Below, piece after piece: positions 1 to 47,816 of a stretch of DNA of 47,816 nt (the first letter of the stretch is position 1; each line of letters opens with the position of its first letter). The notes below the pieces were generated by a model, which was not told where the DNA came from, made no database searches, and saw only the letters and a program-made list of their open reading frames with translations. Source of the DNA: a virus. A program made the position numbers and the translations under genes. The stretch spans positions 1 to 47,816 of IMG/VR virus record IMGVR_UViG_3300043823_000287; one strand, written 5' to 3'.

Positions 1-107
1 ATTACGGATTCGACTAACCCGCCATCGGACGAGTGAGTTGCCGCAAGCGTTAGATTGGACTGTGCTTCGATGAGTTTAATGATGATATTGATTTGTTCGG
101 TTGTCAT
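1..107 (-). CDS. Small protein MTTEQ..., 3'-truncated by the window edge (copy 1)
   Basis: The ATG at 105-107 begins MTTEQINIIIKLIEAQSNLT and the frame stays open to base 1. The first 126 bases of the window are identical to 47157-47282, where the intact 51-residue copy lies. The protein is hydrophilic and mostly helical, with no motif that I recognise. Its start overlaps the stop of a nine-codon mini-ORF. The function is unknown. Everything past residue 35 of this copy lies outside the window. Confidence 0.6.
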   Translation of the reverse strand, partial: MTTEQINIIIKLIEAQSNLTLAATHSSDGGLVESV

Positions 108-133
108 AAGCATCGGGTCGTCGTGTCGTTCAT
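104..133 (-). CDS. Nine-codon leader mini-ORF MNDTTTRCL
   Basis: ATG at 131-133 reads MNDTTTRCL and stops at TGA 104-106. The stop overlaps the ATG of the next gene, and the start overlaps the stop of the preceding membrane peptide. The peptide is the first eight residues of the leader shared by many neighbours (MNDTTTRCP), cut short. A ten-codon counterpart, MNPNTTTRCL, sits before the second copy at 47260-47292. It may be a relic of recombination at the leader or a translational coupling device. Expression is not shown. Confidence 0.4.
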   Translation of the reverse strand: MNDTTTRCL

Positions 134-237
134 TTTCTAAAAAGGGCGTGGAGTGGAATAACGAGTGCGATAAGAAGCAAAACTCCCGAAGCACCGTTGA
201 TGGCCGAAACGATTGCCTGTGCGTCTTCGTGGCTCAT
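130..237 (-). CDS. 35-residue single-helix membrane peptide
   Basis: It begins MSHEDAQAIVSAINGASG, followed by a hydrophobic stretch (VLLLIALVIPLHALF) and a basic end (RK). It has one predicted transmembrane helix. The start overlaps the stop of the upstream gene (ATGA), and the stop overlaps the mini-ORF start. It is a paralogue of the 37-residue peptide at 1048-1161, which begins MNHEDAIQLIS. No function is recognised. The same position and design in both cases, and the shared (S/N)HEDA start, argue that it is translated. Confidence 0.6.
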   Translation of the reverse strand: MSHEDAQAIVSAINGASGVLLLIALVIPLHALFRK

Positions 238-551
238 TCCCCGTCCTCCCATTTTCCTAGAGCGCGGAGGAAAACCTCGGCACGTTGCGCGGCGGTTGCG
301 TTCCAGTAATCATGTTCTAGCTCGGCCAGATAGGTGCGATACACGGACGATTCAAACAAGCCGTTGGCGATTCCGTAATTGACCGCATCGTGCATGGCGT
401 TTAGGTCGCCGTGGTAGTTGTGCGGGAATGACCTGTAGATGCCTTTGTCGTTTGTCCAGCCCTTATTGATGCCCTCCATTGGCTTCCATCCGCATTCTTC
501 AAAAATGCGGCGGTTGATTTCTTGTGGTGTCATGGTGGTCGTGTCGTTCAT
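234..551 (-). CDS. Small phage protein with MNDTTT leader and ATAAQRAEVFL motif
   Basis: I chose the ATG at 549-551 because it begins with the family leader (MNDTTTMTPQEINRRIF) and overlaps the stop of the upstream gene. The body contains YHGDLNAMHDAV and ends NATAAQRAEVFLRALGKW, a pattern I know from short phage proteins related to the phage ABA-sandwich type of unknown function. It is about 105 residues, soluble, with no catalytic signature. The leader is the same as on the zinc-ribbon genes, so it has been joined to an unrelated body. Confidence 0.75.
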   Translation of the reverse strand: MNDTTTMTPQEINRRIFEECGWKPMEGINKGWTNDKGIYRSFPHNYHGDLNAMHDAVNYGIANGLFESSVYRTYLAELEHDYWNATAAQRAEVFLRALGKWEDGE

Positions 552-1051
552 TTGGTTTCGGGTAGGGTTGCGCGGATCGCGTCGAGTTCGGCTCGGAGGT
601 TGCGACTGGCAGGGCCAACTAATCCGCACTCAGCAATCTCGACGGCTCGGCGTAGTTTGCTTTTAAGCAATGCGACCTCGGCCTCTAGTTCGTCGATTCG
701 CTCATTTCGCTTGCGGACATTTAATTCGGAAACATTTAAAGATGCCTGAAGGGTGTTGGCATTCCATTCGGCTTTCTGGAGTTCGCGTTCTAGCTGACGG
801 GCGTAATCCAGAACTCTATCGCATCCCGAAACGATTGGGTTTCTTTTTAGCTCTTCAATCAAAGCATCCGTGCGTGGGGTCGTTGTGTCGCTCATGGCAT
901 TGATTTGATCCTGTCCTTTCTTGCAAAGATCAGATTGGTAGCCTTCATAAGATCCGCATTGGAACGGATACTTTGGAGGTATGGATGTCAGGATGTAATT
1001 AGCTCGGTCTGCACCGCAATGAGGGCATCGGGTCGTCGTGTTGGGGGTCAT
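548..1051 (-). CDS. Double-leader fusion: zinc ribbon + PRTDA coiled-coil protein
   Basis: The 167-residue frame holds two family modules in series. Residues 1-52 are MTPNTTTRCPHCGADRA plus further cysteines (C9, C12, C32, C43), a short zinc ribbon. At residue 53 (genome 895) a second leader starts, MSDTTTPRTDALIEEL, followed by an ARQLERELQKAE coiled coil, EAEVALLKSKLRRAVEIAE and the C-terminal RAELDAIRATLPETK shared with 1158-1433 and 46716-47111. Translation could start at 1051 or internally at 895. Both ends overlap neighbours by ATGA. Function unknown. Confidence 0.75.
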   Translation of the reverse strand: MTPNTTTRCPHCGADRANYILTSIPPKYPFQCGSYEGYQSDLCKKGQDQINAMSDTTTPRTDALIEELKRNPIVSGCDRVLDYARQLERELQKAEWNANTLQASLNVSELNVRKRNERIDELEAEVALLKSKLRRAVEIAECGLVGPASRNLRAELDAIRATLPETK

Positions 1052-1161
1052 TTGATTGAGCTAATGAGTGTGGCTGCGGCGTTGCCTGCGAGAATGATAA
1101 CCAATCCCATCCCTACATCGTGGATGGTGCTGATTAATTGAATTGCGTCTTCGTGGTTCAT
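1048..1161 (-). CDS. 37-residue single-helix membrane peptide
   Basis: It begins MNHEDAIQLISTIHDVG, then a hydrophobic run (MGLVIILAGNAAATLI) and ends SSIK. One transmembrane helix is predicted. It overlaps both neighbours by ATGA. It is a paralogue of the 130-237 peptide, with the same HEDA start and the same position between two leader-family genes. A role as a membrane micropeptide accessory to the neighbouring proteins is conceivable but unproven. Confidence 0.6.
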   Translation of the reverse strand: MNHEDAIQLISTIHDVGMGLVIILAGNAAATLISSIK

Positions 1162-1433
1162 TTTGTTTCGTTTAAGGTTGCCTTGATCGTGTTGAGTTCG
1201 GAGCGAAGTTTCGCCCGATCCACGGTTGAGCAGACTAAAAGACCCTCCGTAATCTCAACGGCTCGGCGTAGTTTGCTTTTAAGCCTCTCGACCTCGGCCT
1301 TGGCTTTCATAGCTCGCTTCTCCAATTCAAGCCCCACCACGAGGGGGATACATTCTCTCATCAGGGATAATCCGTAGAGAGCTTCAAAGCGGTTAGCTTC
1401 GCATACAGGGCAGTGGGTTGGTGTTTCGTTCAT
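1158..1433 (-). CDS. Leader-family protein: CPVCEANRFEAL zinc knuckle + coiled coil
   Basis: This 91-residue protein begins MNETPTHCPVCEANRFEAL, continues with MRECIPLVVG, an ELEKRAMKAKAEVERLKSKL coiled coil, and the shared tail LRRAVEITE and SELNTIKATLNETK. Its N-terminal half is clearly paralogous to 19120-19431 (CPVCEANRFEAL, CIPLKVG, ELEERAM), while its tail matches 548-1051. The protein is therefore a recombinant of modules seen elsewhere in the window. Biochemical function unknown. Confidence 0.75.
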   Translation of the reverse strand: MNETPTHCPVCEANRFEALYGLSLMRECIPLVVGLELEKRAMKAKAEVERLKSKLRRAVEITEGLLVCSTVDRAKLRSELNTIKATLNETK

Positions 1434-1783
1434 TTTGTGTGATTGATTTTGTGGTTTAGTTTTGCGGAAGCTATCGTCATTACATTGTCGCAGGCGCGAG
1501 TGTAGTTTCCGTCGTATGTGTTAGCGGCATGCCAGCATCCTTCTATTCCCGATTTGTACCATTCTACTAATTCGGTAAGCCGAGCGACCTCGGCCTCTGC
1601 TTTCTGCCGTGCCTCGCGCTCGAGGCAGAGGTCGGAGCGTCCATCCAGATCTGGAATGGCTTGGGAAACTGAGGTTCTGCATTTGTAAATGTAGGCTGGC
1701 TTTCCGCGAAACTCGTAAGTCTCTTTGCCCGCATTGTCAGCCCCGCAATGGGGGCACTTGTCGGTGGTCGTCGTGTCGTTCAT
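1430..1783 (-). CDS. Leader-family protein: CPHCGA ribbon + REARQKAEAEV coiled coil
   Basis: It is 117 residues, starting MNDTTTTDKCPHCGADNAGK. More cysteines follow (YKCRTS, SDLCLEREARQKAEAEVARL) and then a coiled coil. The segment LCLEREARQKAEAEVARL recurs almost unchanged in 18178-18630 and 46716-47111. The C-terminal part (from about residue 65) is unique. It ends with an ATGA overlap on the next gene. Likely a soluble zinc-binding oligomeric protein of unknown role. Confidence 0.75.
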   Translation of the reverse strand: MNDTTTTDKCPHCGADNAGKETYEFRGKPAYIYKCRTSVSQAIPDLDGRSDLCLEREARQKAEAEVARLTELVEWYKSGIEGCWHAANTYDGNYTRACDNVMTIASAKLNHKINHTK

Positions 1784-1790
1784 GGTTGGT

Positions 1791-2051
1791 TTAGTAGCGA
1801 GTATTCCAGTCTTTGATGGAGTTCTCTGGGGCGTAGTTAAGTGGGCCAGAAGTTCCGCAACGGGCGCATTGAACTACATAAGTCTTGTGTCCGTCCCCGT
1901 GGTTCCAAGTGTGGAGTGATAGGGATGGTTCTACAGATCCGTCCCAATCAAGTTCGGAATCTTCTTCTTTAGCACCACAGAAGGGGCATGGATTGAATTG
2001 AGTAGTTAAGGATTCCTTGACAACTGGGCATCGTGTCGTCGTGTCGTTCAT
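1791..2051 (-). CDS. Lar-like (restriction alleviation type) zinc ribbon with family leader
   Basis: After the leader MNDTTTRCPVV, residues 20-86 carry NPCPFCGAKEE, then VVQCARCGTSGP, and end SIKDWNTRY. Two CxxC pairs plus the terminal WNxRY are the hallmark of the Lar family (Rac prophage Lar eases EcoKI restriction). The usual Lar protein begins near the first CPFCG, so about 18 leader residues have been added in front. I infer a Lar-type fold. Anti-restriction activity is only suggested by family. Confidence 0.7.
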   Translation of the reverse strand: MNDTTTRCPVVKESLTTQFNPCPFCGAKEEDSELDWDGSVEPSLSLHTWNHGDGHKTYVVQCARCGTSGPLNYAPENSIKDWNTRY

Positions 2052-2119
2052 TCTTTGTTCACAAGGGCTACAAATGTTGCAACGCCTATGATTAGGCTAA
2101 GTGCGGCGAGGGCGATCAT
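2048..2119 (-). CDS. 23-residue membrane micropeptide
   Basis: ATG at 2117-2119 reads MIALAALSLIIGVATFVALV, then NKE and TGA. It is almost entirely one hydrophobic helix. It overlaps the stop of the upstream gene and the ATG of the Lar-like gene by ATGA. Those precise overlaps are the main evidence that it is translated. No homologue is recognised. Confidence 0.5.
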   Translation of the reverse strand: MIALAALSLIIGVATFVALVNKE

Positions 2120-2361
2120 TTGGTATATTTTTTTAGCTCTTCTTTCATGGATTCTAGTTCTTTGATATGAAGCGGGGTGATACACCCACAGCATTCCCCA
2201 ACTTCTTCAGCGATCTCAATAGCCTTGCGAAGATTCGCCTCTGCCTTCAATGCTCTTTCAGTCATTTCGCACAAGGGAGATTGGCACTCTTGTCCATGTG
2301 GACGATAGTAGGGCTTGCAATCAAGCTCCCTGCAATTAGGGCATTTTGTTTTTGCGCTCAT
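2116..2361 (-). CDS. Leader-family zinc-ribbon/coiled-coil protein, divergent leader
   Basis: It is 81 residues, starting MSAKTKCPNCRELDCKPYY, with two more cysteines at QECQSPLCEMTERAL, then AEANLRKAIEIAEEVG and a lysine-rich end. The order zinc ribbon, then ERALKAEANLRKAIEIAE, matches its paralogues (EKRAMKAKAEV..LRRAVEITE). The leader lacks NDTTT, so this is a more diverged member. Function unknown. Confidence 0.7.
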   Translation of the reverse strand: MSAKTKCPNCRELDCKPYYRPHGQECQSPLCEMTERALKAEANLRKAIEIAEEVGECCGCITPLHIKELESMKEELKKYTK

Positions 2362-9792: not shown

Positions 9793-9795
9793 AAA

Positions 9796-12086: not shown

Positions 12087-12098
12087 TGTGTTTTTGGG

Positions 12099-16043: not shown

Positions 16044-16807
16044 AGTGGCAACCTCCAGTCTTGGGAGAACTCGCTTCTGGTAAGGAGCCATACTGCGGAG
16101 TCTTTAGGCCCAATCTCTCCATAGACGATGCCTTGTCGCCATCCAAGCGTTGCTCGGCGGCACTTCGCATAGTCCATCTCGCCTCTGCGAGTAAGCGTGC
16201 CCACGCAGTATCCCGTGCTTTCCTTGATTGTGCGTCCCTCGCCAACTTGCGCTCGGTGAGTGTGAGCAAAGATGACATTGCCCCCATAAATTTCTGCCAT
16301 GTCCCTAGCACTATTCTCATTATAAATCGTACCGTGGGTGAAGGTGACATTTCCTATTGAGAGCCTTTGGAAAACCCCGTCATACGGAATGCGGCGACAG
16401 CCAATCTTCTTAAACGACTCATCAATGAAGTTGGTTGCTTGCTGGGCGGCATATGCGACAAGAGCGTTACGGTGGGATAACATACAGGGGATTCGATCCT
16501 CATGGTTTCCGTCCAGCACATGAGTTGGTCGATACTTTCGCAGGAAAGCAATTCCTCCATCAATGTCTGGAGCAACTGGTTCTGACTCGTCAGAACTTCC
16601 AACAGCCCCACTTCGCCATGCTGTAGTATCACACCAATCTCCCAAGTGAACCACAATGGATGGCTTCCATTTATCACGCATGGATAAGACGGCTTCAGTC
16701 GCCGAATTGTCAGCATATTTTCCATGACTGCACCCAACGGCAAGAAATCTCTCATATTTTGTAGCGATATGGGGGGCTTTCGCCCCCCTCGTTTTGGCCT
16801 TACTCAT
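16040..16807 (-). CDS. Calcineurin-like metallophosphoesterase
   Basis: It is 255 residues with the ordered metal ligands GCSHGK (25-30), VVHLGDWCD (52-60), LDGNHEDR (98-105), FTHGT (156-160) and FAHTHR (180-185). The first motif is GxSHG rather than GDxHG, so one usual metal ligand is altered. It overlaps the ERF gene by 8 bases, suggesting a DNA-repair nuclease or phosphatase partner. The substrate cannot be told from sequence. Confidence 0.88.
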   Translation of the reverse strand: MSKAKTRGAKAPHIATKYERFLAVGCSHGKYADNSATEAVLSMRDKWKPSIVVHLGDWCDTTAWRSGAVGSSDESEPVAPDIDGGIAFLRKYRPTHVLDGNHEDRIPCMLSHRNALVAYAAQQATNFIDESFKKIGCRRIPYDGVFQRLSIGNVTFTHGTIYNENSARDMAEIYGGNVIFAHTHRAQVGEGRTIKESTGYCVGTLTRRGEMDYAKCRRATLGWRQGIVYGEIGPKDSAVWLLTRSEFSQDWRLPL

Positions 16808-17534
16808 TGGGAGTGATGGTTACGATCTCCCACTTGGAGGGATCTTTCTTGCTGGGGCAGACCCCAGCATCAACGATGGTTCCGTTCTTCCCAAGTTCAG
16901 TAGCTAGGTTATACAGCTTCTCATCGAATGTCATAGTCTCCAAGACCTTCCCCTTGTCATTGAACTCAATGGCATAGAGAACCCACTTCTTAGAGCTACC
17001 CTCTGGACTCTTTGCGGCGATCTTGGTATTGGTGGGGAGAACCCCAGACCAAGTATTCGTAACATTACCAGCAGGGCGAACGGATGGATTTCGATCCATG
17101 ATCTTAGCAAGAGCAGGGCGAGGCTCCTCCTTCTTGGCTAGGCCAGAGGACACATTGCCGTCATCATCCTCCTCCGTTGCCAGACCGCACACAGCGGCTA
17201 GGGAGTAACGACGAGCATAGGTGATGGCAGATCCAACTCCCTGCGGGGACTGATCCTTGAGAGGGAGCAGAAGCTCAGACTCCTCGTAGTGACCAGCCTT
17301 GTGCTTGATGATGGTCTTAACGCCAGCGCATCCATCACGATATACGGGTGTTTGCTGGATAGCCAGACCATGCTTTGCAAGCACGGGTCGGGTTGCGTCT
17401 ACGATTGCATCCAACGGAGCATACTTAGATTTGAAGTACGGGTTGTTTGCTGTTTTGGGAACATTGGTGAGTTCCCCGATAGCGGCTACGAGAGCCTGTG
17501 CGTATTCCTGCTGTGGTGTGGTTTCTGTTTTCAT
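16800..17534 (-). CDS. erf: ERF-family single-strand annealing protein
   Basis: It is 244 residues. The N-terminal ERF domain reads NNPYFKSKYAPLDAIVDATR (30-49), then HGLAIQQTP and GVGSAITYARRYSLAAVCGL (99-118), followed by EEDDDGN. These are the core ERF motifs. The C-terminal half is variable. It anneals complementary single strands for recombination and genome circularisation. The start follows AATAAAACAACACA. It works with the phosphoesterase, the PD-(D/E)XK nuclease and the SSB-like protein. Confidence 0.93.
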   Translation of the reverse strand: MKTETTPQQEYAQALVAAIGELTNVPKTANNPYFKSKYAPLDAIVDATRPVLAKHGLAIQQTPVYRDGCAGVKTIIKHKAGHYEESELLLPLKDQSPQGVGSAITYARRYSLAAVCGLATEEDDDGNVSSGLAKKEEPRPALAKIMDRNPSVRPAGNVTNTWSGVLPTNTKIAAKSPEGSSKKWVLYAIEFNDKGKVLETMTFDEKLYNLATELGKNGTIVDAGVCPSKKDPSKWEIVTITPNE

Positions 17535-17962: not shown

Positions 17963-18181
17963 TTATTTTCTAAATTTTTTCCTGCGCTCAATCTCTCGGT
18001 TGATGAACCAAGCCGCCTTCTCAAGCTCTTGGATTTCGTCATCCTTGAGGCCGCATCGCCAAATATATTTGACTGCCGCCCCTAGGTTGAATGGAAAATG
18101 TTCAATGATGTCGATTGCCTCCACTCCAGATGGGTGAGAGGTGTAGTGTTTTGGGTGGTTGATGGTGTCGTGGGTTTTCAT
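17963..18181 (-). CDS. DUF3310 family protein
   Basis: It is 72 residues, starting MKTHDTINHPKHYTSHPSGV, then EAIDIIEHFPFNLGAAVKYI and WRCGLKDDEIQELEKAAWFI. HPKHYxxHPSGxEaIdI and NLGxAvKYiWRxGxKd are the DUF3310 signature, common in phage replication neighbourhoods and sometimes called a nucleotide kinase-like protein. The biochemical role is unproven. It is the last gene of the middle tiny-gene block. Confidence 0.88.
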   Translation of the reverse strand: MKTHDTINHPKHYTSHPSGVEAIDIIEHFPFNLGAAVKYIWRCGLKDDEIQELEKAAWFINREIERRKKFRK

Positions 18182-18630
18182 TTTAGTGTTGCCTTGATTG
18201 CTGAACTTGCTATGTGGCGATAGTATTCTGTTGAGTCGTGGGTGGTTGTTCCATGAGCAATGAATGACAGGGCTTCACGAAGCAGAGCGACCTCGGCCTC
18301 TGCTTTCTGCCGTGCAGAGCGTTCAATGCACAAAGGCGATATTTTCGCGGGTTTCGTTTTGTAAATCTCTGTTCCACATTCAAACACATTCCAGTATTGA
18401 ATGCCTCTTTCAGCCCCGCAATGTGGGCATCGGGTCGTGTCGTTGATCTCCTGTTCCTCGTAATAATCGGGATTACATACCTCACAATCAAATCCTCCGT
18501 AGCAGGAGCATTTAGGCTTTTTTACCACATTGATATTTTTCCCACAGGCGGTGCATTGCGTGGTGATTTTGTCTCCTTGTTCAAGCTGAACAATAGAATG
18601 ATGCGGGCATCGGGTCGTCGTGTCTTTCAT
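18178..18630 (-). CDS. Double-leader zinc-ribbon fusion, leader family
   Basis: It is 150 residues. The first leader, MKDTTTRCPHHSIVQLEQGD, precedes cysteine pairs (QCTACGKN, KCSCYGGFDCEVC). A second leader in frame, INDTTRCPHCGAERG, begins near residue 63 with ATC in place of ATG, and is followed by LCIERSARQKAEAEVALLRE and the tail IASSAIKATLK. Two family members have fused and the internal start codon has been lost. Zinc binding is likely and the function is unknown. Confidence 0.75.
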   Translation of the reverse strand: MKDTTTRCPHHSIVQLEQGDKITTQCTACGKNINVVKKPKCSCYGGFDCEVCNPDYYEEQEINDTTRCPHCGAERGIQYWNVFECGTEIYKTKPAKISPLCIERSARQKAEAEVALLREALSFIAHGTTTHDSTEYYRHIASSAIKATLK

Positions 18631-19127
18631 TTTGAGTAAAGTTCGATGTATTTCCTTCGGAGTTCAGCGGTCGTGCAGTTACAACCGAGATCCCATTTTT
18701 TTGGGTCTTCTGTTGAAATGTTGCAGTCCCCGTCATGTAGGCCACCGATGTCCACACAGTCGTAAAACTCGGTAAGCAGTGATCGCGTCTCAAAGAGTAA
18801 TTCTCCTAGCCGAGCGACCTCGGCCTCGGCCTCGGCTTTTTCTTTGAGTTGTTGATTCTGCTTTTTGATAATTGCATTCAAGGCATTAACCTTTTTATTG
18901 AGACTTCGTATCTCATTCTTTGACTGTGAGGTTGCTGAAACTTGGAGCTTCAAAAGGTGCTTGTATGCGGTTGTTTTATTCTTTTCTTTTTCAAGAAGGG
19001 ATTCGAGACGAAAGGCAAATTCTGAAGGAACTGGAAGACCTCGGTTTTGATAGCCCCCATACAACCTCCTCAATTCTTGGTTCGTTCTGGGAAATGCACT
19101 TAAGAAGTGGGTCGTCTTCTCAATCAT
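18627..19127 (-). CDS. Leader-block coiled-coil protein
   Basis: I chose the ATG at 19125-19127 (MIEKTTHFLSAFPRTNQELR), as it overlaps the previous stop (ATGATTGA). The middle is a long coiled coil (NEIRSLNKKVNALNAIIKKQ, then KEKAEAEAEVARLGELLFE), and the end carries cysteines (DIGGLHDGDCNI, DLGCNCTTAELRRKY). It has the family AEAEVARL segment but not the leader. Function unknown. Confidence 0.7.
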   Translation of the reverse strand: MIEKTTHFLSAFPRTNQELRRLYGGYQNRGLPVPSEFAFRLESLLEKEKNKTTAYKHLLKLQVSATSQSKNEIRSLNKKVNALNAIIKKQNQQLKEKAEAEAEVARLGELLFETRSLLTEFYDCVDIGGLHDGDCNISTEDPKKWDLGCNCTTAELRRKYIELYSK

Positions 19128-19431
19128 GATTGGTTTCGGGTTTAGAGAATCCTTCAAGGATTCCAGCGTAGTGATGGAGTTGCTTGATGATCGCTTCAGC
19201 TTTATCTACTCGTTCGATAAGGAATGCGGAGCGTTCATCGCTTTTCTTTGCACATTCCATCACCATGTTTTTAAGCCGTGCGACCTCGGCCTCGGATTGC
19301 ATAGCCCGTTCTTCCAGTTCATATCCAACCTTCAGTGGAATGCAGTCCTTTCGGAGTGCGCAACCTCGGAGAGCCTCAAAGCGGTTGGCTTCACAAACGG
19401 GGCATTGGGTCGTCGTGTCGTTGGTGGTCAT
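19120..19431 (-). CDS. Leader-family CPVCEANRFEAL protein, paralogue of 1158-1433
   Basis: It is 103 residues, starting MTTNDTTTQCPVCEANRFEA, then RKDCIPLKVGYELEERAMQS and EAEVARLKNMVMECAKKSDE. The N-terminal 55 residues align with 1158-1433, while the C-terminus (DKAEAIIKQLHHYAGILEGF) is unrelated. This shows module exchange at the coiled coil. It overlaps neighbours by ATGA and ATGATTGA. Confidence 0.75.
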   Translation of the reverse strand: MTTNDTTTQCPVCEANRFEALRGCALRKDCIPLKVGYELEERAMQSEAEVARLKNMVMECAKKSDERSAFLIERVDKAEAIIKQLHHYAGILEGFSKPETNHD

Positions 19432-19817
19432 TTGAATTCTTCTTCAATTCGTTTAAGGATTTCATCCAAGAAACAGACGCAACGAATGTTTAGAGGATCG
19501 CAGGTTTTTTCATCGTGGTTCAAATACGGAACGGCATCTCTTATTAGTTGTTTAAGCCGTGCGGCCTCGGCCTCTGCTTTTTCTAACTTCTGCTCGGCTT
19601 CCATTTGCTTGTCGAAACGGCTCCATAGTTCCTTTCGTTCTGTCTCGGATTCGTTGAGTTCGCGTTCTAGCTGACGGGCTAGACTAATCATATCCATTCT
19701 GTCGCCATCACTAGGCTTTCGCAGTTCGACTATTAAAGCATTTACTCGCGGAGAATCTGAAAAGTAGTTGCCTTCAGATTCAGCATCCGTTCGTGGGGTC
19801 GTCGTGTCGTTGTCCAT
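19428..19817 (-). CDS. PRTDA-type leader-family coiled-coil protein
   Basis: It is 129 residues: MDNDTTTPRTDAESEGNYFS, then RVNALIVELRKPSDGDRMDM, SLARQLERELNESETERKEL, EKAEAEAARLKQLI, and a C-terminal cysteine group (CDPLNIRCVCFLDEI). The NDTTTPRTDA start and the ARQLERELN motif match 548-1051. It is the first gene of the middle tiny-gene block. No function is assigned. Confidence 0.75.
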   Translation of the reverse strand: MDNDTTTPRTDAESEGNYFSDSPRVNALIVELRKPSDGDRMDMISLARQLERELNESETERKELWSRFDKQMEAEQKLEKAEAEAARLKQLIRDAVPYLNHDEKTCDPLNIRCVCFLDEILKRIEEEFK

Positions 19818-30674: not shown

Positions 30675-30702
30675 GGGATCGTTATCGGATGTGCCCTGTC
30701 AA

Positions 30703-32178: not shown

Positions 32179-32181
32179 GTG

Positions 32182-32703: not shown

Positions 32704-32704
32704 T

Positions 32705-34078: not shown

Positions 34079-34079
34079 A

Positions 34080-39873: not shown

Positions 39874-39879
39874 GACGGG

Positions 39880-40725: not shown

Positions 40726-40726
40726 A

Positions 40727-41518
40727 TTATTTATAGGGGTTGCCTGTTATTGAATCATCAAATCCATATCCAACGCCAGATTGTCCAGATTTTTGCGCCT
40801 TAAACCTTTTAGCTGCCATAGAAACGGCATCTTGCATCTCCGAAGATGCTTGAAGGGGGCGCAGAGATGAAAAATCACTTAATGCCCCCATTCCGCTTTC
40901 AATTCCCCTGTGCTCTTGGGGGGAAACATCCACTACTGTGTAGGGGCGACCATGAACATCTGACTTCACTCTAATGTCTTCAGACCCAGCAATCCCCCTG
41001 CCAGCGTAAGGCTTGTAGGCTTCTTGAATTGCTTTGAACGCTTCTGATATGTTTGAGTAGTCACCAGACTGCATTTTATGGATATCTTGAAGATCCTGCA
41101 TCTGTTTATCGCTGGACTCCTTAGAAAACTGCGCTGTGTTTTGGGCACTTTGATTTGCCAAGGGGGAAGTTGATGCACTTTTTAAGTCCGACAAATCAAA
41201 AGGAGACCCCTTGCCAGCAAGGAACGAGTCAGCAAATTCGCTCGGCCTGTTTTCAAATGGAGTTGGCATAGGCTGGCCTCCCCCCATTTCCTTGAAATAA
41301 TTCCCCCAGTCCATGTTATATGGATTTTCTTTTTGAGGTAATTGATAAAAACCACCGCCTTTCCTAGGATAATAACCAGTAGGTGTTGGAAGGTTTTTGG
41401 GGTCTTGAACACCTCCTTGCCCCATAACCGCCCCCTCGATCCCACTATAAATGGAATCAAGCCATGCTCCCGGGGCAAACCAGTTGTAGTTGGGGTCTGG
41501 GGGGGTAACTCTGGCCAT
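40727..41518 (-). CDS. Hypothetical virion protein, 263 residues
   Basis: It reads MARVTPPDPNYNWFAPGAWL, a Pro/Gly-rich first third (PTPTGYYPRKGGGFYQLPQK), then a helical part (NISEAFKAIQEAYKPYAGRG) and SDVHGRPYTVVDVSPQEHRG. No enzyme motif is visible. The gene is one base from its downstream neighbour and uses the AAT-ATGGC start context of virion genes. Confidence 0.65.
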   Translation of the reverse strand: MARVTPPDPNYNWFAPGAWLDSIYSGIEGAVMGQGGVQDPKNLPTPTGYYPRKGGGFYQLPQKENPYNMDWGNYFKEMGGGQPMPTPFENRPSEFADSFLAGKGSPFDLSDLKSASTSPLANQSAQNTAQFSKESSDKQMQDLQDIHKMQSGDYSNISEAFKAIQEAYKPYAGRGIAGSEDIRVKSDVHGRPYTVVDVSPQEHRGIESGMGALSDFSSLRPLQASSEMQDAVSMAAKRFKAQKSGQSGVGYGFDDSITGNPYK

Positions 41519-41519
41519 A

Positions 41520-42248
41520 TTAAATTAGGTTTTGAATGAGGCTAGGGGCGAATGCTTTCATTTGAATCTCAACTTGATCTGAGCTTCCATCCTCAAAGGC
41601 AATGCTCTCATCATTCAGTGACTTGTACGCCAGATCCCAATAGACTTGCGCCCTCTCTAACTCGTTGATATTTTCGTAGTTATATGCCTGACAACCATAT
41701 CGGTAGGCATTGATGTTAGAGGGGATGAGAACATCGGTGTCATTCACCAAGGGGACATACCCCCTGCGAACCAAGCACATCATCGTCCTAGTCTCAGGAA
41801 TCTTCCCAATAACCCGATAACGCTGGGTGTCGGAGGTGAAATTACCAGCCCCATCTCCAGAGGGAAGCGGGAAAACAGGCGTGTTGCCAAGGCGAAGGAT
41901 CTGCGTATCCCCAACATATGTGGGGGACATATAACCAATCCCATTCTCATTCCAAGGATACCAATCAGTCATGACATCAGCAATCTCTCCAGTCATGTAG
42001 GTGGGATCAAGGGCAATAACCCTCAACACCGACTCAATGCCGGGGATGGTATCGAAATAATAGTTCCCAGCAGAGTCCTGAGAAACGCTGAAGTTGTAGG
42101 CAAACCGATTTCCCCGCCATTGCCCAGAGGAGATAAACCTCTCGTTGCAGAAGTTAATCGCAGAACCCACCACAGCATCGCTCGCACCTTGACTGGTAAT
42201 GAAGGGAGCAAAAAGAGTTTTGGCCTGTGAGAAAGTGAGGGACGGCAT
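41520..42248 (-). CDS. Head-to-tail adaptor / tail tubular-like protein
   Basis: It is 242 residues: MPSLTFSQAKTLFAPFITSQ, SAINFCNERFISSGQWRGNR, YYFDTIPGIESVLRVIALDP, IGKIPETRTMMCLVRRGYVP and INELERAQVYWDLAYKSLND. An alpha-helical start, a beta middle and a helical end with ERAQxxWxxA are typical of adaptor proteins that sit under the portal in short-tailed phages. This is inference from pattern and size. Confidence 0.65.
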   Translation of the reverse strand: MPSLTFSQAKTLFAPFITSQGASDAVVGSAINFCNERFISSGQWRGNRFAYNFSVSQDSAGNYYFDTIPGIESVLRVIALDPTYMTGEIADVMTDWYPWNENGIGYMSPTYVGDTQILRLGNTPVFPLPSGDGAGNFTSDTQRYRVIGKIPETRTMMCLVRRGYVPLVNDTDVLIPSNINAYRYGCQAYNYENINELERAQVYWDLAYKSLNDESIAFEDGSSDQVEIQMKAFAPSLIQNLI

Positions 42249-42294
42249 GAGTATCCTACTGATTACTAACCTTCTTGCGCTAGGTCAAGGAGGT

Positions 42295-42543
42295 TTAATC
42301 ATCATTTAACCATTCCGTGTCTTCGTCAATCTCCTCAAACTCGCCATCCATGTAAGCCTCAGTCAGCCCCTTGATGGCAAATTGGTTGCCAACAGCAGTG
42401 TGGTAATACTCAGTTTTCCCATTCTCCTCCCTGCTTAACAGGATCAAAGCCACCTCAAAATGCTCTCCAGCGATAGCTCTAAGCTGTCTAATAACGAACA
42501 CATCTTCATCACTGGGCTCTTCTTTGGATGATGCGGCTGACAT
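42295..42543 (-). CDS. Hypothetical acidic protein, 82 residues
   Basis: It starts MSAASSKEEPSDEDVFVIRQ, then LRAIAGEHFEVALILLSREE, and ends with the acidic FEEIDEDTEWLNDD. Small alpha/beta protein of unknown role between the adaptor and the glycosyltransferase genes. Confidence 0.6.
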   Translation of the reverse strand: MSAASSKEEPSDEDVFVIRQLRAIAGEHFEVALILLSREENGKTEYYHTAVGNQFAIKGLTEAYMDGEFEEIDEDTEWLNDD

Positions 42544-42552
42544 CCCTGCTTA

Positions 42553-43251
42553 TTAGATCACAGGGTTCTCATTTGCAAGGATCTTATCAATCTCTCCCCG
42601 ATGTTTCTCCACCCCTCCATAACTCCAATACTGAAGCAGATAGGTGGGAAAATCAGATGGGTGCTTCCATTCAAACAGATCATGCCTAAAACGATCACAC
42701 CAAGCCCCAAACACATTGAACTCAGAGAACTCATGCCTTGGTTGCCCAGCAATATATTCCTTCAACTCCATATCATGCTTCTTCTTCATCCATGCCCTAA
42801 ACTCAGGATATAGCACCCTCGGAAACACAAAAGGATGCCTCCGCATATAATCCTTCCCGCTATCCCATCCCAATGCTTTCCCCATAATCGGAGGCCAAGG
42901 CGATTCTACGCCATCCTCGACGAGATAAACGGGCTTCCCGTAAACAATCAAATCCCGCACATCAAGAGGAACATTAAAGATGCAATCTGAATCCACATGA
43001 CAGATAAAATCAGCATCGCAATACTCATCGGCATGGAGCTTGGTAATCTGCTGTGCCATGTATCCTGTACAGGAATCATGGACTAAGTGCACCTCCGATG
43101 CGCCCACATCTGGAAGACGGGGATAGTCATTCGCAGGGACAGCAATGTGAATCTGATTATATCCAGTGACATTCTTCTTGATTGACTTGTAGCAAAGCTC
43201 AAGCCAACCAGCATCAGCGGCATATGTCCTAATAAACAGATCAACACTCAT
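42553..43251 (-). CDS. Glycosyltransferase-like protein (DUF6492 / GT-A type)
   Basis: It is about 232 residues from the ATG at 43249-43251 (MSVDLFIRTYAADAGWLELC). An in-frame ATG at 43260 adds three codons. It continues YKSIKKNVTGYNQIHIAVPA, then DADFICHVDSDCIFNVPLDV (DSD motif), PFVFPRVLYPEFRAWMKKKH and EFNVFGAWCDRF. The FIRTY start, DSD motif and late FNVxG are those of DUF6492-like transferases. It is the first gene of the leftward virion operon. Confidence 0.72.
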   Translation of the reverse strand: MSVDLFIRTYAADAGWLELCYKSIKKNVTGYNQIHIAVPANDYPRLPDVGASEVHLVHDSCTGYMAQQITKLHADEYCDADFICHVDSDCIFNVPLDVRDLIVYGKPVYLVEDGVESPWPPIMGKALGWDSGKDYMRRHPFVFPRVLYPEFRAWMKKKHDMELKEYIAGQPRHEFSEFNVFGAWCDRFRHDLFEWKHPSDFPTYLLQYWSYGGVEKHRGEIDKILANENPVI

Positions 43252-43260
43252 TACCACCAT

Positions 43261-44022: not shown

Positions 44023-44708
44023 GTAAGACAAGGGGTGGTGCCCGTCATGGCTTGTCCTGAAATAATAGATTCCTTACAAAAGGGGACGAGGACAGACGAG
44101 GTAAGACAAGCAGAGACGGGAACGCAAGACAATAACGGACATCACCACGACACGCCGGCTGCCTTACAATCTCTTGCTTCGTCTGTGTAAGACAAGCTAT
44201 TACGCCGGCTTCACGATAGAGAGAGCGTCCAGACCAAGCTGTAGGACGTTCACTGACAGCATCGCTCCCTCCTTCTCCTGTCCTATCCCAAATATCGTCT
44301 TACCTGCGTTCGCAAGGTCTACCATCTTCCTCGATGCTTCCAACGCAGAGAGTCCGTCCAACTCTGTAAGACATGAGGCCGCTTTGGTCAGTCCGATCCC
44401 CATTGCTGAGTGAAAAGCCTTTCCATTCTCTTCTAGTGATCGTGACAACGCATCGGAAGAGTGACAAACAGGCACAGCATCATAATGCCCCTTTTCTCTT
44501 TTAATCTCTTGAATCTCCCTTGCCTTGTTCACTAGCTTTTGAGCATTGGTGGATGTTTCCCAGAAATCCCTTTTCGCCCATTGTCTGACCGTTGCTTCTT
44601 TCACTCCGTGAAGACGAGCCGCCTCTTTTAATGACCCAGTTGCAAGGTAGGTTGCCCTGACCTCCTCTCGATTGATTGCTAGTTTGCTTCCCATGATGTA
44701 AGACAATG
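44023..44708. repeat. Cluster of GTAAGACA motifs around the HTH/TerS-like gene
   Basis: GTAAGACA occurs at 44023, 44101, 44187, 44366 and 44698 here and again at 46226 and 46253. Five of the seven lie outside genes, three followed by AG. The nearby ACGCCGGCT is also duplicated (about 44152 and 44202). They could be binding sites for the adjacent HTH protein or packaging (pac) sites. Confidence 0.5.
44200..44694 (-). CDS. HTH protein, candidate small terminase subunit or regulator
   Basis: From ATG 44692-44694: MGSKLAINREEVRATYLATG, then a helix-turn-helix, SLKEAARLHGVKEATVRQWA (21-40), KRDFW, a charged helix (NKAREIQEIKREKGHYDAVP) and a helical C-terminal part. HTH followed by W-A-K-R-x-x-W is common in phage small terminases (TerS), but a repressor is also possible. 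A second Met four codons upstream exists. It is flanked by GTAAGACA motifs. Confidence 0.6.
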   Translation of the reverse strand: MGSKLAINREEVRATYLATGSLKEAARLHGVKEATVRQWAKRDFWETSTNAQKLVNKAREIQEIKREKGHYDAVPVCHSSDALSRSLEENGKAFHSAMGIGLTKAASCLTELDGLSALEASRKMVDLANAGKTIFGIGQEKEGAMLSVNVLQLGLDALSIVKPA

Positions 44709-44709
44709 A

Positions 44710-44738
44710 ATTTGAGAGCGTGACAAGTTATTTGTCAA
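44710..44738 (-). promoter_or_regulatory. Leftward promoter with overlapping palindromic operator
   Basis: On the minus strand TTGACA (44733-44738), 17 bases, then TCAAAT (44710-44715). The palindrome TGACAA-GTTAT-TTGTCA occupies 44721-44737, covering the spacer and -35. A further TGACA half site is at 44751. A bound regulator would block the HTH gene and perhaps the opposite promoter. Confidence 0.6.
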
Positions 44739-44780
44739 TAAAATAATTTGTGACAGGGAAAACTTTTTTCCTTTTATTTT

Positions 44781-44809
44781 TTGACATAGGGAAGGGGAAA
44801 GGGTAACTT
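44781..44809 (+). promoter_or_regulatory. Rightward sigma70-type promoter
   Basis: TTGACA (44781-44786), 17 bases, then TAACTT (44804-44809). It lies 49 bases before the ATG at 44858. The leader holds a hairpin GTCGAG/CTCGAC (44817-44838). It drives the plus-strand small-gene operon. Confidence 0.65.
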
Positions 44810-44857
44810 TTAAGAAGTCGAGGGAATCAACTCTCGACGGAACCAAAAGAAGAAAAC

Positions 44858-44944
44858 ATGAAAAACGCAATCCTTCACACACTGGCATTTATCTTCTGTT
44901 CTGCCTTTGTAGCCTTCACCATCTATTGTTTCATTTCAGAATGA
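44858..44944 (+). CDS. 28-residue membrane micropeptide
   Basis: MKNAILHTLAFIFCSAFVAF, then TIYCFISE, TGA. One hydrophobic helix after a basic start. The ATG follows AAAAGAAGAAAAC, and the stop overlaps the next ATG (ATGA). It is the first gene of the plus-strand operon. Confidence 0.55.
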   Translation: MKNAILHTLAFIFCSAFVAFTIYCFISE

Positions 44945-45123
44945 ACATTATTGAATCACTTCTTAACGGCAATATCTCCGACGCAAAACGCAAAGCTCGA
45001 AGCCGCTCCTTCATGTGGCTCGTCCAACAAGGGGATCAAATGGGGTTTGACGCAATGGAAAGATGGAAAATTGCTGCCTTTCTGAAGGGAATGATTAATT
45101 GGGAAGAATACACACAAAAATAA
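44941..45123 (+). CDS. Hypothetical protein, 60 residues
   Basis: The ATG at 44941 (MNIIESLLNGNISDAKRKAR) is favoured by its ATGA overlap with the micropeptide stop. It reads SFMWLVQQGDQMGFDAMERW, then KIAAFLKGMINWEEYTQK. Basic and helical. Similar short proteins occur in many phages, but I know no function. Confidence 0.65.
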   Translation: MNIIESLLNGNISDAKRKARSRSFMWLVQQGDQMGFDAMERWKIAAFLKGMINWEEYTQK

Positions 45124-45149
45124 AACATTAAATAAAACAATATAACATC

Positions 45150-45491
45150 ATGAAAAACGACAACGAAAAACAAGAACAAATCGCAAGGCTCAAGGAATGG
45201 ATGCCAGAAGGGACGACGGTTTACACAATCCTTCGCAATGTCTCATCATCGGGAATGACTCGGCACATATCCCTAGTAATTCCTTGGAAAGATGAAATTA
45301 CAGGGAAATTAGGTTTTATCCACCCTAACTATGCGGCAGGAAAGGCCCTTGGCTGGAAGATCACGACTAAAAACGGTTCAGACTGCATCAAAGTAGGAGG
45401 GTGCGGAATGGATATGGGATATCACCTTGTGCATTCCCTTTCTTATGCCCTCTATGGCAACGGATACGCACTCAACCATGAATGGCTCTAA
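45150..45491 (+). CDS. Conserved phage protein with SSSGMTRHISL and GGCGMDMG motifs, 113 residues
   Basis: It contains TVYTILRNVSSSGMTRHISL, then KVGGCGMDMGYHLVHSLSYA, ending GYALNHEWL. The combination of LRxVSxSGMxRxI and KVGGCGMDMGxHLVxxLS is widespread in phage genomes as an uncharacterised family. The role is unknown. The start follows AACATC in an A-rich tract. Confidence 0.8.
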   Translation: MKNDNEKQEQIARLKEWMPEGTTVYTILRNVSSSGMTRHISLVIPWKDEITGKLGFIHPNYAAGKALGWKITTKNGSDCIKVGGCGMDMGYHLVHSLSYALYGNGYALNHEWL

Positions 45492-45610
45492 TGGAAACCC
45501 TCCTCGCCTTCGCTCGTTTCTCCGTCCTTGCAACACTCGCCGCAATGCCTGTGTGCTTTGTGTGGTGCTGCCTAACTTGTGCATATAAAGACAACAGAAA
45601 AGACAAATAA
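45491..45610 (+). CDS. 39-residue membrane micropeptide
   Basis: The ATG at 45491 shares its A with the previous stop (TAATG). It reads METLLAFARFSVLATLAAMP, then VCFVWCCLTCAYKDNRKDK. One helix with four cysteines at its end and a basic tail. No family known. Confidence 0.55.
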   Translation: METLLAFARFSVLATLAAMPVCFVWCCLTCAYKDNRKDK

Positions 45611-45625
45611 AAAGCAAAATAAAAC

Positions 45626-45835
45626 ATGAAAGATAAATTCAGAAATAAGAACGGCGACCTTTCCGCTTATTCTTTTGCCTGTGGGTATGTGCAAGAGAAG
45701 CAGACAAATAACGGAAAGGTGGAACTATACAAAGACGGAAACTGGCATGTTCGCATTTTTGACGATCAACCGCATGGACGCTGGGTTTCCTTTGACACTT
45801 TAGGAGAAGCAAGGAAAGCATTCCGAAAAGCATAG
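45626..45835 (+). CDS. Hypothetical protein, 69 residues
   Basis: MKDKFRNKNGDLSAYSFACG, YVQEKQTNNGKVELYKDGNW, HVRIFDDQPHGRWVSFDTLG, then a basic helix. The ADYxFxCGYVxxxxxxxxxVxLyxdGxxyHVR pattern is common in small phage proteins of unknown role. The start follows GCAAAATAAAAC. Confidence 0.7.
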   Translation: MKDKFRNKNGDLSAYSFACGYVQEKQTNNGKVELYKDGNWHVRIFDDQPHGRWVSFDTLGEARKAFRKA

Positions 45836-45850
45836 AAAAAAAAATAAAAC

Positions 45851-46033
45851 ATGAAAAAGATTGATTGCAGACTAAAGTTCCCGGAAAGTGAATTTTATGA
45901 GCCTTTATCTCGATTCACTGCCGCAAAGGTACTCAAAGCAGCCAGAAAAAGGGGGAGGAGTAATGTTTCCTTTAATGCTTGCGGGTTCTCAATCAAAGAT
46001 CATGGACTGAAGATTATATATTCCATCATATAG
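45851..46033 (+). CDS. Hypothetical protein, 60 residues
   Basis: MKKIDCRLKFPESEFYEPLS, RFTAAKVLKAARKRGRSNVS, FNACGFSIKDHGLKIIYSII. Basic alpha/beta protein, no family recognised. It is the last gene before the plus-strand terminator. The start follows AAAAAAAATAAAAC. Confidence 0.6.
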   Translation: MKKIDCRLKFPESEFYEPLSRFTAAKVLKAARKRGRSNVSFNACGFSIKDHGLKIIYSII

Positions 46034-46046
46034 AACCAGAAAGCAA

Positions 46047-46080
46047 GCCCCTTGCCCTTATCGGCAGGGGGCTTTTTCTT
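46047..46080 (+). terminator. Rho-independent terminator of the plus-strand small-gene operon
   Basis: GCCCCTTGCC (46047-46056) pairs with GGCAGGGGGC (46063-46072) over ten pairs with one T-G wobble and a six-base loop, followed by TTTTTCTT. It lies 13 bases after the last plus-strand gene. Confidence 0.9.
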
Positions 46081-46120
46081 TGCCTTTATTGCCCCCCCCT
46101 TGCTTCCCCTTTTTCGTTCC

Positions 46121-46148
46121 CCTGTCCTTTATCCTGTCCTTTATCCTG
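46121..46148 (+). repeat. 12-bp tandem repeat
   Basis: CCTGTCCTTTAT occurs twice head to tail (46121-46132, 46133-46144) followed by CCTG. It lies in a pyrimidine-rich stretch past the terminator, with no gene on it. Confidence 0.8.
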
Positions 46149-46261
46149 CCCCCTACAATATAAAGCCTTTTATTGTTTTCTTTTTATGCGACATTCCAGA
46201 CAGCTAATTTTTTAATTTAACATCTGTAAGACATTCACTTACTTTGAAAGCTGTAAGACAA

Positions 46262-46486
46262 TCACGCACAATCACTTACTTTGACTTGCATCGACATTTC
46301 CCTCCGCATTCCCGTCCCGTCGGGCATTTTTCGTCGGGCTTTTTTAGCCGTCGGGCATTTTTCGTCGGGCTTTTTTAGCCGTCGGGCATTTCTAAAGATG
46401 CGTTCATAGTTCTCCAGATATGCTTTTGAGTTGCAGGAGCGAGGAGTGTCTCCCTTTCCCGCCTTGTAATAAGGAACTCCCTTCAT
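46262..46486 (-). CDS. Small phage protein with GDTPRSCNSKAY motif and repeat-derived C-terminus
   Basis: The N-terminal half, MKGVPYYKAGKGDTPRSCNS then KAYLENYERIFRN, fits a known small phage type (KGDxPRxxxxxxYxENYxxIF). From about residue 37 the sequence is lysine-rich (KKPDEKCPTAKKARRKMPDG) and encoded by a 31-bp tandem repeat. Since 31 is not a multiple of three, each unit is read in a different frame. The natural C-terminus has probably been replaced. Confidence 0.6.
   Translation of the reverse strand: MKGVPYYKAGKGDTPRSCNSKAYLENYERIFRNARRLKKPDEKCPTAKKARRKMPDGTGMRREMSMQVKVSDCA
46317..46391 (+). repeat. 31-bp tandem repeat, about 2.4 copies
   Basis: CCGTCGGGCATTTTTCGTCG then GGCTTTTTTAG is repeated exactly at 46317-46347 and 46348-46378, with a partial third copy (46379-46391). 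It lies inside the gene at 46262-46486. Internally the unit itself holds two CGTCGGGC(A)TTTTT halves. Confidence 0.9.
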
Positions 46487-46715: not shown

Positions 46716-47111
46716 TTATGGGTTGAGGGTTGCCTTGATATCGTCGAGTTCTTTTCGGAGTGCATTCCATGGCGTTCCATCGTGTTCGTAAAAAGCATCC
46801 GCAATCTCGACGGCTCGTCGAAGGTCTTTCTGCGTGGCTTCTAGCGTTGTCTCTGACATGGTTGCTCGTTGCTTCCAGCCGACCAGCAAGCGGTTAAGCT
46901 CTTCTATTTCTAACTGCATTTCAAACTGCTGGCGGATGTAGTTTGCTTTAATCTCCTCGACCTCGGCCTCTAGTTTCTGCCGCGCCTCGCGTTCGCGGCA
47001 GAGGTCTCCACGCCTTGTCAGCCTGTAATCAGTTCCACAAATGAAGTTCGTGTAATCAAGAGGGCCGCAGACGCAGAATCGGCAATGGGTTGGTATCGGC
47101 GTGTCGCTCAT
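46716..47111 (-). CDS. Leader-family zinc/coiled-coil protein, right block
   Basis: It is 131 residues: MSDTPIPTHCRFCVCGPLDY, GDLCREREARQKLEAEVEEI, a long coiled coil, then KDLRRAVEIADAFYEHDGTP and ALRKELDDIKATLNP. REARQKLEAEV pairs it with 1430-1783, and the LRRAVEIA...ELDDIKATLNP tail pairs it with 548-1051 and 1158-1433. It is a third-block member built from the same modules. Function unknown. Confidence 0.75.
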   Translation of the reverse strand: MSDTPIPTHCRFCVCGPLDYTNFICGTDYRLTRRGDLCREREARQKLEAEVEEIKANYIRQQFEMQLEIEELNRLLVGWKQRATMSETTLEATQKDLRRAVEIADAFYEHDGTPWNALRKELDDIKATLNP

Positions 47112-47263
47112 TTGTCTTCAGCAGTTGCGAGGAGTTCTTCCTCTAGTCGTCGCACGATTACGGATTCGACTAACCCGCCATCGGACGAGTGAGTTGCCGC
47201 AAGCGTTAGATTGGACTGTGCTTCGATGAGTTTAATGATGATATTGATTTGTTCGGTTGTCAT
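47108..47263 (-). CDS. Small protein MTTEQ..., complete copy (copy 2), 51 residues
   Basis: It starts MTTEQINIIIKLIEAQSNLT, then LAATHSSDGGLVESVIVRRL and EEELLATAEDK. The DNA from 47157 is identical to 1-126. The start overlaps the ten-codon mini-ORF stop, and the end overlaps the next ATG (ATGA). It is short and helical, possibly a coiled-coil partner for the neighbouring leader-family proteins. Function unknown. Confidence 0.65.
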   Translation of the reverse strand: MTTEQINIIIKLIEAQSNLTLAATHSSDGGLVESVIVRRLEEELLATAEDK

Positions 47264-47282
47264 AAGCATCGGGTCGTCGTGT
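47157..47282. repeat. 126-bp exact direct repeat of window bases 1-126
   Basis: All 126 bases match, then the sequences diverge (C at 127 against T at 47283). It covers most of the MTTEQ gene and the mini-ORF. Copy 1 begins at the very first base of the window. This points to an assembly break at a repeat or a true recent duplication. Confidence 0.95.
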
Positions 47283-47292
47283 TGGGGTTCAT
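47260..47292 (-). CDS. Ten-codon leader mini-ORF MNPNTTTRCL
   Basis: ATG at 47290-47292 reads MNPNTTTRCL and stops at TGA 47260-47262. Start and stop overlap neighbours by ATGA, exactly as in the 104-133 copy, although the first codons differ. Expression unproven. Confidence 0.4.
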   Translation of the reverse strand: MNPNTTTRCL

Positions 47293-47492
47293 TTTGTTTC
47301 GGGTAGGGTTTTCTCGTAAGTGATTTCTTCGACCAGCTTGCACTTCCTGCCGCTTCCCTGAATCAGAGAGCGGGTGTGTTTGACCCCGGCAATAGCAGTC
47401 TTCTTGTCGGTGATCGGGCCACCGTGATACCACCAATCGCTGTCACCGGGTCACTTGGTTTTGATCTGATAGACGCGGGAGATCTCTTTCAT
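47289..47492 (-). pseudogene. Small gene interrupted by in-frame TGA
   Basis: From ATG 47490-47492 the frame reads MKEISRVYQIKTK, then TGA (47451-47453), then continues in frame PGDSDWWYHGGPITDKKTAI, AGVKHTRSLIQGSGRKCKLV, EEITYEKTLPETK and TGA. Both ends overlap neighbours by ATGA, so the full 67-codon gene is the natural unit. TGA stands one base from TGG (Trp), giving KTKWPGDSDWW. It is a nonsense mutation, a sequencing error or a readthrough site. Function unknown. Confidence 0.7.
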
Positions 47493-47692
47493 TTCAGCCT
47501 CCTCCCCGTGTAGTAGTGATAGACGCAGCGAAGCGACTTCAGCATCGCCTCCTTCTCTTCCGGCCAATCATAGGTGCCGTGCTTGTTGGCAACGATGTCC
47601 TCGTAAGTTTGTTTGAGAGAGACCGCGACGATTTGATCTTCCTGATAGCCGTCGATTTCAAAGGTAAGTGCTAAAGGTTTCTTGGGTTTCAT
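47489..47692 (-). CDS. Hypothetical protein, 67 residues
   Basis: MKPKKPLALTFEIDGYQEDQ, IVAVSLKQTYEDIVANKHGT, YDWPEEKEAMLKSLRCVYHY, YTGRRLK. The end (KSLRCVYHYYTG) matches a short phage protein style that I have seen without known function. ATGA overlaps on both sides keep it in the coupled chain. Confidence 0.65.
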   Translation of the reverse strand: MKPKKPLALTFEIDGYQEDQIVAVSLKQTYEDIVANKHGTYDWPEEKEAMLKSLRCVYHYYTGRRLK

Positions 47693-47816
47693 TTGTTAAG
47701 GAGTTTAATTTTGAGTTGATATTGTGCTTCCTCGAAGCGTTCACGGGTTAGCCATGCCTCACGACCTCTCATGTAGGCCCAGAAGATGCGGCCATCGGGT
47801 CCGACATCCCCCCGCC
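47689..47816 (-). CDS. Partial gene running off the right edge
   Basis: The last 42 codons are visible: GGDVGPDGRIFWAYMRGREA, then WLTRERFEEAQYQLKIKLLN and K, TGA. The start lies beyond base 47816. GDVxPDGRxFWxYxRGxExWxxxExFE resembles small phage proteins with a zinc-less HNH-like or unknown fold, but no family is certain. It overlaps the next ATG by ATGA. Confidence 0.6.
   Translation of the reverse strand, partial: RGDVGPDGRIFWAYMRGREAWLTRERFEEAQYQLKIKLLNK

Follow-up and report, generated by a model that had tools for sequence, protein, structure and literature searches.

Small genes with a common leader in the window

We analyzed the whole of IMG/VR virus record IMGVR_UViG_3300043823_000287 (47,816 base pairs (bp); hereafter the window), read as phage DNA, for a family of small genes that begin with a common coding leader. 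Genes on the minus strand in three stretches (1-2400, 18178-19817, and 46716-47300) have leader, coil, and tail DNA in common, combined differently from gene to gene (Table 1). The leader word GACACGACGACC is present in 10 minus-strand copies, none of which has more than one mismatch, and a longer 17-base form, ATGAACGACACGACNAC, in seven copies with at most two mismatches (0.01 expected). From the codon usage of the window, the codons GAC ACG ACG ACC for DTTT have a chance of 0.004 per copy. Seven of the 10 copies open an open reading frame (ORF): 234-551, 548-1051, 1430-1783, 1791-2051, 18178-18630, 19120-19431, and 19428-19817. One is an internal second leader in frame within 548-1051, and the remaining two (116-127 and 47272-47283) start aborted ORFs of nine to ten codons. 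The leaders of 1158-1433, 2116-2361, and 46716-47111 are diverged. An earlier, sequence-only reading of the window had counted at least ten genes with near-identical leader DNA; with seven ORFs opened and three genes diverged, the count was somewhat generous. As the aborted ORFs at 104-133 and 47260-47292 carry the leader, its DNA appears to have moved even where a family protein is no longer encoded; alternatively, it may have a role in translation start.

Bases 1-126 are repeated exactly at 47157-47282, and the identity ends inside the leader. The simple reading of this overlap would be a circular genome of about 47.16 kilobases together with a second haplotype differing upstream of the leader. 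Because of the repeat, the first and third blocks probably adjoin in a circular or permuted genome, and the three blocks described earlier are probably two. At 47295-47500 on the minus strand, a frame is interrupted by a single stop codon and then stays open; this may be a gene that has been broken, or an error in the sequence near the contig end.

Coil DNA of the form GCCGAGG(T/C)CG is common to eight genes in the window. The codons GAG GCC GAG GTC encoding EAEV have a chance of 0.02 per copy, again from window codon usage. In an all-against-all DNA comparison, the 5' part of gene 1158-1433 (1274-1430) matches 19266-19422 at 70% over 157 bp, and its 3' part (1153-1300) matches 543-684 at 73% over 148 bp, confirming the proposal that it is a chimera with the head of 19120-19431 and the tail of 548-1051. 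Both matches overlap on the coil segment at 1281-1298, which we call the hinge. With two leaders each in one frame, 548-1051 and 18178-18630 resemble the outcome of inserting one cassette within another.

Table 1. Coordinates of family genes, hinges, and related features in the window
Feature	Position	Strand	Basis or comment
Aborted leader ORF MNDTTTRCL*	104..133	-	leader word at 116-127; ATGA overlap with next gene MTTEQINIII..., which runs off the contig start
Gene, leader MNDTTT and unrelated 105-residue body	234..551	-	no Pfam family
Gene, two leaders in one frame (MTPNTTTRCPHCGA and internal MSDTTTPRTDA), then ARQLEREL, coil, tail LRRAVEIAE	548..1051	-	sequence, self-comparison
Hinge GCCGAGGTCGCATTGCTT	665..682	-	in gene 548-1051
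Chimeric gene, head as 19120-19431, tail as 548-1051	1158..1433	-	modeled as one long helix, 31-90
Hinge GCCGAGGTCGAGAGGCTT, most frequent form in other phages	1281..1298	-	in gene 1158-1433
Gene, leader, zinc ribbon, hinge, tail ANTYDGNYTRACDNV common to G002 and other phages	1430..1783	-	comparison with other phages
Hinge GCCGAGGTCGCTCGGCTT	1577..1594	-	in gene 1430-1783
Gene, leader and Lar-like (restriction alleviation) body	1791..2051	-	profile matches
Diverged member, CPNC head, RKAIEIAEE tail, without hinge word	2116..2361	-	sequence
ERF single-strand annealing protein, candidate exchange agent	16800..17534	-	phrog_2324 7.1e-44
Gene, two leaders (MKDTTTRCPH and INDTTRCPHCGA), zinc ribbons, hinge	18178..18630	-	sequence, self-comparison
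Hinge GCCGAGGTCGCTCTGCTT	18280..18297	-	in gene 18178-18630
Coil gene with hinge, without leader	18627..19157	-	sequence
Hinge GCCGAGGTCGCTCGGCTA	18807..18824	-	in gene 18627-19157
Gene, leader DTTTQCPVCEANRFEAL, hinge, tail MVMECAKKSDERS related to G011 and G012 genes	19120..19431	-	sequence, comparison
Hinge GCCGAGGTCGCACGGCTT	19273..19290	-	in gene 19120-19431
Gene, leader DTTTPRTDA, ARQLERELN, ELWSRFDKQMEAE, hinge	19428..19817	-	sequence, comparison
Hinge GCCGAGGCCGCACGGCTT	19554..19571	-	in gene 19428-19817
Gene, diverged leader MSDTPIPTHCRFC, zinc ribbon, hinge, tail LRRAVEIAD	46716..47111	-	sequence, self-comparison
Hinge GCCGAGGTCGAGGAGATT	46950..46967	-	in gene 46716-47111
Second aborted leader ORF MNPNTTTRCL*	47260..47292	-	leader word; ends in ATGA overlap with another gene

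The leader also precedes unrelated bodies. That of 1791-2051 matches PHROG_599 (4.6e-7) and NCBIfam anti_R_Lar (2.4e-8; 34.1 bits, cutoff 39.6), supporting the description of this body as Lar-like. It falls narrowly below the Pfam and NCBIfam cutoffs; its homologue L172:6989-7285 exceeds that of Pfam. The leader is fused to a Lar body in these two phages. The ABA-like label given to 234-551 found no support in Pfam.

Modules are exchanged between otherwise unrelated phages

A search with the ERF protein found 36 loci. The closer relatives among them carry tandem arrays of the same kind, with the leader MxTTDTPRTDA and mostly ATGA stop/start overlaps; in these genomes and the window itself, 16 of 24 family genes start with an ATGA on an open upstream frame. 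G011 encodes several tandem genes beginning with TTDTPRTDA, in which tails such as HDGWKKARKAHLETCKNAQAEIDKLHTENVCLQELIQEFYEW are common to different heads. Related arrays with other modules are found in G002, G003, G012, and G013. Neither of two window query proteins was matched in several of the relatives, and a search for loci related to 1430-1783 returned no relative. Whole-gene duplicates also occur. One in G011 is 84% identical over 267 bp, and in the phage record G003 a whole family gene is doubled (23535-23835 and 25357-25657) at 97% over 301 bp; the G003 duplication is very recent.

To survey the leader more widely, we used the pattern ATGA-N(2-14)-DTPRTDA, which matched at least 120 stretches of viral contigs against one for a control with the same residues permuted. 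In 257 gigabases of cellular genomes the same pattern gave 18 matches, none of which was a family gene on reading. The leader is therefore far above chance, which is not what a short convergent similarity would give. Contigs carrying it range from 41 to 62% in guanine plus cytosine (GC), and among the matches listed only 37 of the 120 leader stretches have a homologue of any of 15 other window proteins; the family is thus spread over different phages. Across them the leader is kept mainly as the peptide DTPRTDA, with fairly varied codons. The exact 18-base leader of the window matched just two unrelated-looking loci in viral contigs, which suggests that the DTTT form is local and DTPRTDA the general one; a DTTTRCP pattern was found in one contig. 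Our literature search for DTPRTDA found no paper.

We next compared what stands behind the leader. With leader and hinge masked, 145 genes were divided into 309 segments, of which 50 modules were seen more than once; the follower varies in 29 of these and the predecessor in 21. Without hinge masking, residual hinge sequence merged all heads and tails. Different module orders behind the same leader are seen in many related phages, and gene content differs between relatives, as opposed to a stable content inherited vertically. Fragments are common to otherwise unrelated proteins and have different partners, as in protein mosaicism. Some exchanges are recent. The head DAIEFRHCPPQPKELLKKHQDAYAL (144-156 bp) of L160 is 95-97% identical in DNA to those of L099 and L135, and in neither pair do the contigs match anywhere else. 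Between L135 and L160 the identity runs from the leader to GAGGTCG and ends there.

These observations bear on whether the family arose by plain tandem duplication and divergence of paralogues under vertical descent, the shared words being remnants of ancestry. The whole-gene duplicates in G003 and G011 are in line with such a process. Heads and tails with different partners are not, nor are near-identical heads in otherwise unrelated contigs of 44% and 61% GC, and LEREL is conserved as protein with little codon conservation, unlike AEVER (see below). We hold duplication to be improbable as the whole account, and it survives only as a contributing process. The apparent swaps could also have been produced by chimeric metagenome assembly, as all relatives are metagenome contigs and the 126-bp end overlap of the window is typical of a branch in an assembly graph. 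However, most joins share 12-20 bp, below the usual assembler k-mers, many shared modules are 70-95% identical and too diverged for a k-mer join, and L099 and L116, which come from separate metagenomes, have the same combination of head and tail. An assembly artefact is thus the least probable of the explanations we weighed.

The ends of similarity were located from DNA matches of at least 85% (85-100%) and compared with random positions in 1000 draws. With the hinge taken as LEREL...AEVERL, 75 of 96 right breakpoints fall at the hinge, against a mean of 45.7 for random positions (maximum 61), and 63 of 81 left breakpoints, against a mean of 38.8 (maximum 52).

Codons are fixed at the hinge

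At every GC level, the hinge codons GCC GAG GTC GAG AGG show 79-97% fixation, whereas in the rest of these genes the figure is 8-53%. Over three contig GC classes, AGG makes up 82-87% of the Arg codons at the hinge, compared with 8-12% in other parts of these genes; for Val, GTC makes up 85-89%, compared with 24-31%. Among 4463 hinge pairs with unrelated flanks, which are not independent, codon identity given the same residue was 0.77, 0.92, 0.77, 0.86, and 0.72 along A-E-V-E-R, where 0.28, 0.50, 0.28, 0.50, and 0.19 were expected; the effect is present in all three GC classes. For the L right after AEVER the value falls to 0.23 (expected 0.18). AR.LEREL, conserved as protein a few residues upstream, has a codon identity between records of 0.37 versus 0.32 expected, and the leader is intermediate (0.51 versus 0.33). 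The shuffled cassette system at conserved coding DNA put forward in the sequence-only reading is supported, with the refinement that across phages the segment conserved as DNA is the hinge, the leader being kept mainly as a peptide.

One explanation for such a word is a dedicated site, cut or joined by a sequence-specific nuclease or recombinase in a true, integron-like cassette system. Codon conservation limited to about 15-20 bp with a sharp fall at both edges is consistent with this, as is the short identity shared at most joins, which is too little for homologous recombination to be efficient. A free-standing site would be expected elsewhere too, yet the core word is in frame as AEV within ORFs in 155 of 160 cases (a sample chosen through leader or ERF). 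Its last bases vary (GAG AGG, GCA AGG, and GCT CGG), and a scan of the 20 larger window proteins, most of them without a named family, named no integrase and no recombinase except ERF. We therefore think a dedicated site unlikely. Slightly less likely again is that the hinge DNA is kept for a role in messenger RNA or translation, for example a pause at the purine-rich GAGG repeats aiding coil assembly, with the swaps being separate, ordinary mosaicism. The form GAGGCCGAGGTCGAGAGG has three GAGG units resembling Shine-Dalgarno cores, and conservation is in codon phase within ORFs. Against a pause, the alanine variant GTC GCA AGG is common despite the loss of one GAGG, and similarity breakpoints fall at the hinge, which a pause does not predict.

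The hinge 17-mer was tried as a family-specific tag and rejected, as it also encodes AEVERL in the coils of other phage proteins; a synonymous control 17-mer was found in 57 contigs with single matches only. Small phage genes of a second group, in which ENARLKAEVERLTKAGD surrounds this word, are found in L245, L260, L272, L295, and others; they may be a further shuffled family.

Exchange, known systems, and possible function

A typical gene starts at an ATGA overlapping the previous stop and continues through a short leader (DTPRTDA, or DTTT in the window phage), a variable N-module that appears to be a zinc ribbon or short helical piece, the hinge as a predicted coiled coil LEREL...AEVERL, and a variable C-module. 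We consider it likely that these genes form a modular accessory family that moves among uncultured phages and recombines at its leader and hinge. With the genes linked head to tail through ATGA, crossing over from one leader to another would add, remove, or swap a whole gene. A crossover at the hinge would swap the C-module alone and keep the frame, since the hinge is a near-invariant DNA word with one reading frame inside a predicted long helix. One predicted model, of 1158-1433, is a long helix running through the hinge; another has a small strand pair followed by helices. The long helix suggests that a swap there need not break a folded domain.

The exchange may proceed by homologous recombination or single-strand annealing with phage enzymes such as the encoded ERF. 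Rad52-like annealases including Erf recombine diverged phage DNA, giving mosaics at short or diverged homology, and for Red-beta the identity needed is about 23-27 bp (PMC3945230). Within the window, similarity around the hinge extends to 36 bp (97% identical) and 49 bp (90%), which should be sufficient for Rad52-like annealases, but in the larger set exact runs of at least 23 bp pass through the hinge in no more than 145 of 4410 pairs. We prefer rare annealing over evolutionary time, in which survivors retain the hinge word; the word would persist because only modules carrying it can be spliced into new genes again. The earlier suggestion of ERF-driven homologous shuffling is plausible, ERF being encoded in the phage, though the agency of this protein we only infer.

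Several points weigh against the account preferred here. When unrelated genes are compared, exact matches through the hinge have a median length of 12 bp, below the length quoted for Red-beta, and an ERF homologue was found in only four of the 120 leader stretches examined, among the matches listed. The modules were delimited with hand-made motif masks. The enrichment of left breakpoints depends on counting LEREL as hinge: with AEVERL alone left ends are not enriched (40 versus 46.3), while right ends still are. The hinge word is also present in coils of unrelated phage proteins.

The known kind of system is phage protein mosaicism, in which fragments are common to otherwise unrelated phage proteins; Smug et al. 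(2023; PMC10684548) expect more of it where accessory proteins have no known function. The clear cases in that work are receptor-binding proteins, endolysins, and replication proteins, whereas the present family consists of very small accessory genes that have a fixed leader and a single recurring word at the join. New are the fixed peptide leader, the ATGA-linked arrays, and the codon-fixed, in-frame hinge as join point. The work on relaxed Rad52-like recombination concerns longer homologies (PMC3945230), in contrast to a word of 15-20 bp inside a coding coil. Lambda Ea22 and Ea22-like proteins are encoded by an early accessory gene near recombination genes and have a short N-terminal part, a coiled coil, and a phage-variable C-terminal domain (PMC10834534); a tetrameric state and an effect in favour of lysogeny are further traits of that group. 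The architecture is alike, but the window family differs in its many-gene arrays, conserved leader peptide, zinc ribbons, and DNA-conserved hinge, and the members scanned in Pfam, PHROGs, and NCBIfam gave no sequence match to the Ea22-like family. The Lar family (Pfam PF14354) resembles the bodies of 1791-2051 and L172:6989-7285, the only Lar-like ones among the members scanned, and differs by the family leader fused in front of them. Besides Lar, scans of members against defence-system and NCBIfam profiles gave only weak coil-type matches and a sub-cutoff zinc ribbon, and no other known function was found among the members scanned.

The genome region also encodes ERF, an exonuclease, and DnaB. 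Together with the zinc ribbons, the coils, and the linking of gene starts, this setting is in keeping with Ea22-type early accessory proteins. Elsewhere in the window, GTAAGACA occurs seven times on the plus strand in 44023-46260 (nine in the whole window, 0.8 expected) and is perhaps an operator or other binding repeat. A 31-bp unit, CCGTCGGGCATTTTTCGTCGGGCTTTTTTAG, stands in 2.4 perfect copies at 46317-46391, resembling stacked terminators, and an imperfect 68-bp palindrome lies between convergent genes at 22501-22567. Most large proteins encoded in 6878-14327 and 24614-43260 have no PHROG family, suggesting a phage lineage far from those described, and a 1248-residue window protein had no match in phage records.

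What the products do is a guess. They may be early host-takeover or anti-defence proteins in which the coil oligomerizes and the end modules bind changing host targets, a possibility we take seriously without expecting it to hold. More doubtful still is a fuller version, in which GCCGAGGTCGAGAGG at the hinge is maintained as an in-phase splice point and a phage-encoded enzyme joins half-genes from a pool common to the phages, as a DNA-level analogue of exon shuffling that would yield ever-new coiled-coil adaptors against host targets.

Shuffling of protein fragments in phages is known, and the in-frame joining of short unrelated pieces is mostly unexplained. Here the join point can be read as one coding word of 15-20 bp, codon-conserved across phage contigs of 41-62% GC, and the hinge helix is a place where a swap should do little harm. 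As two family members had no match in 50,697 phage records, current databases appear to miss such proteins. If the products act on host defences, new counter-defence proteins absent from these databases would come from this pool.

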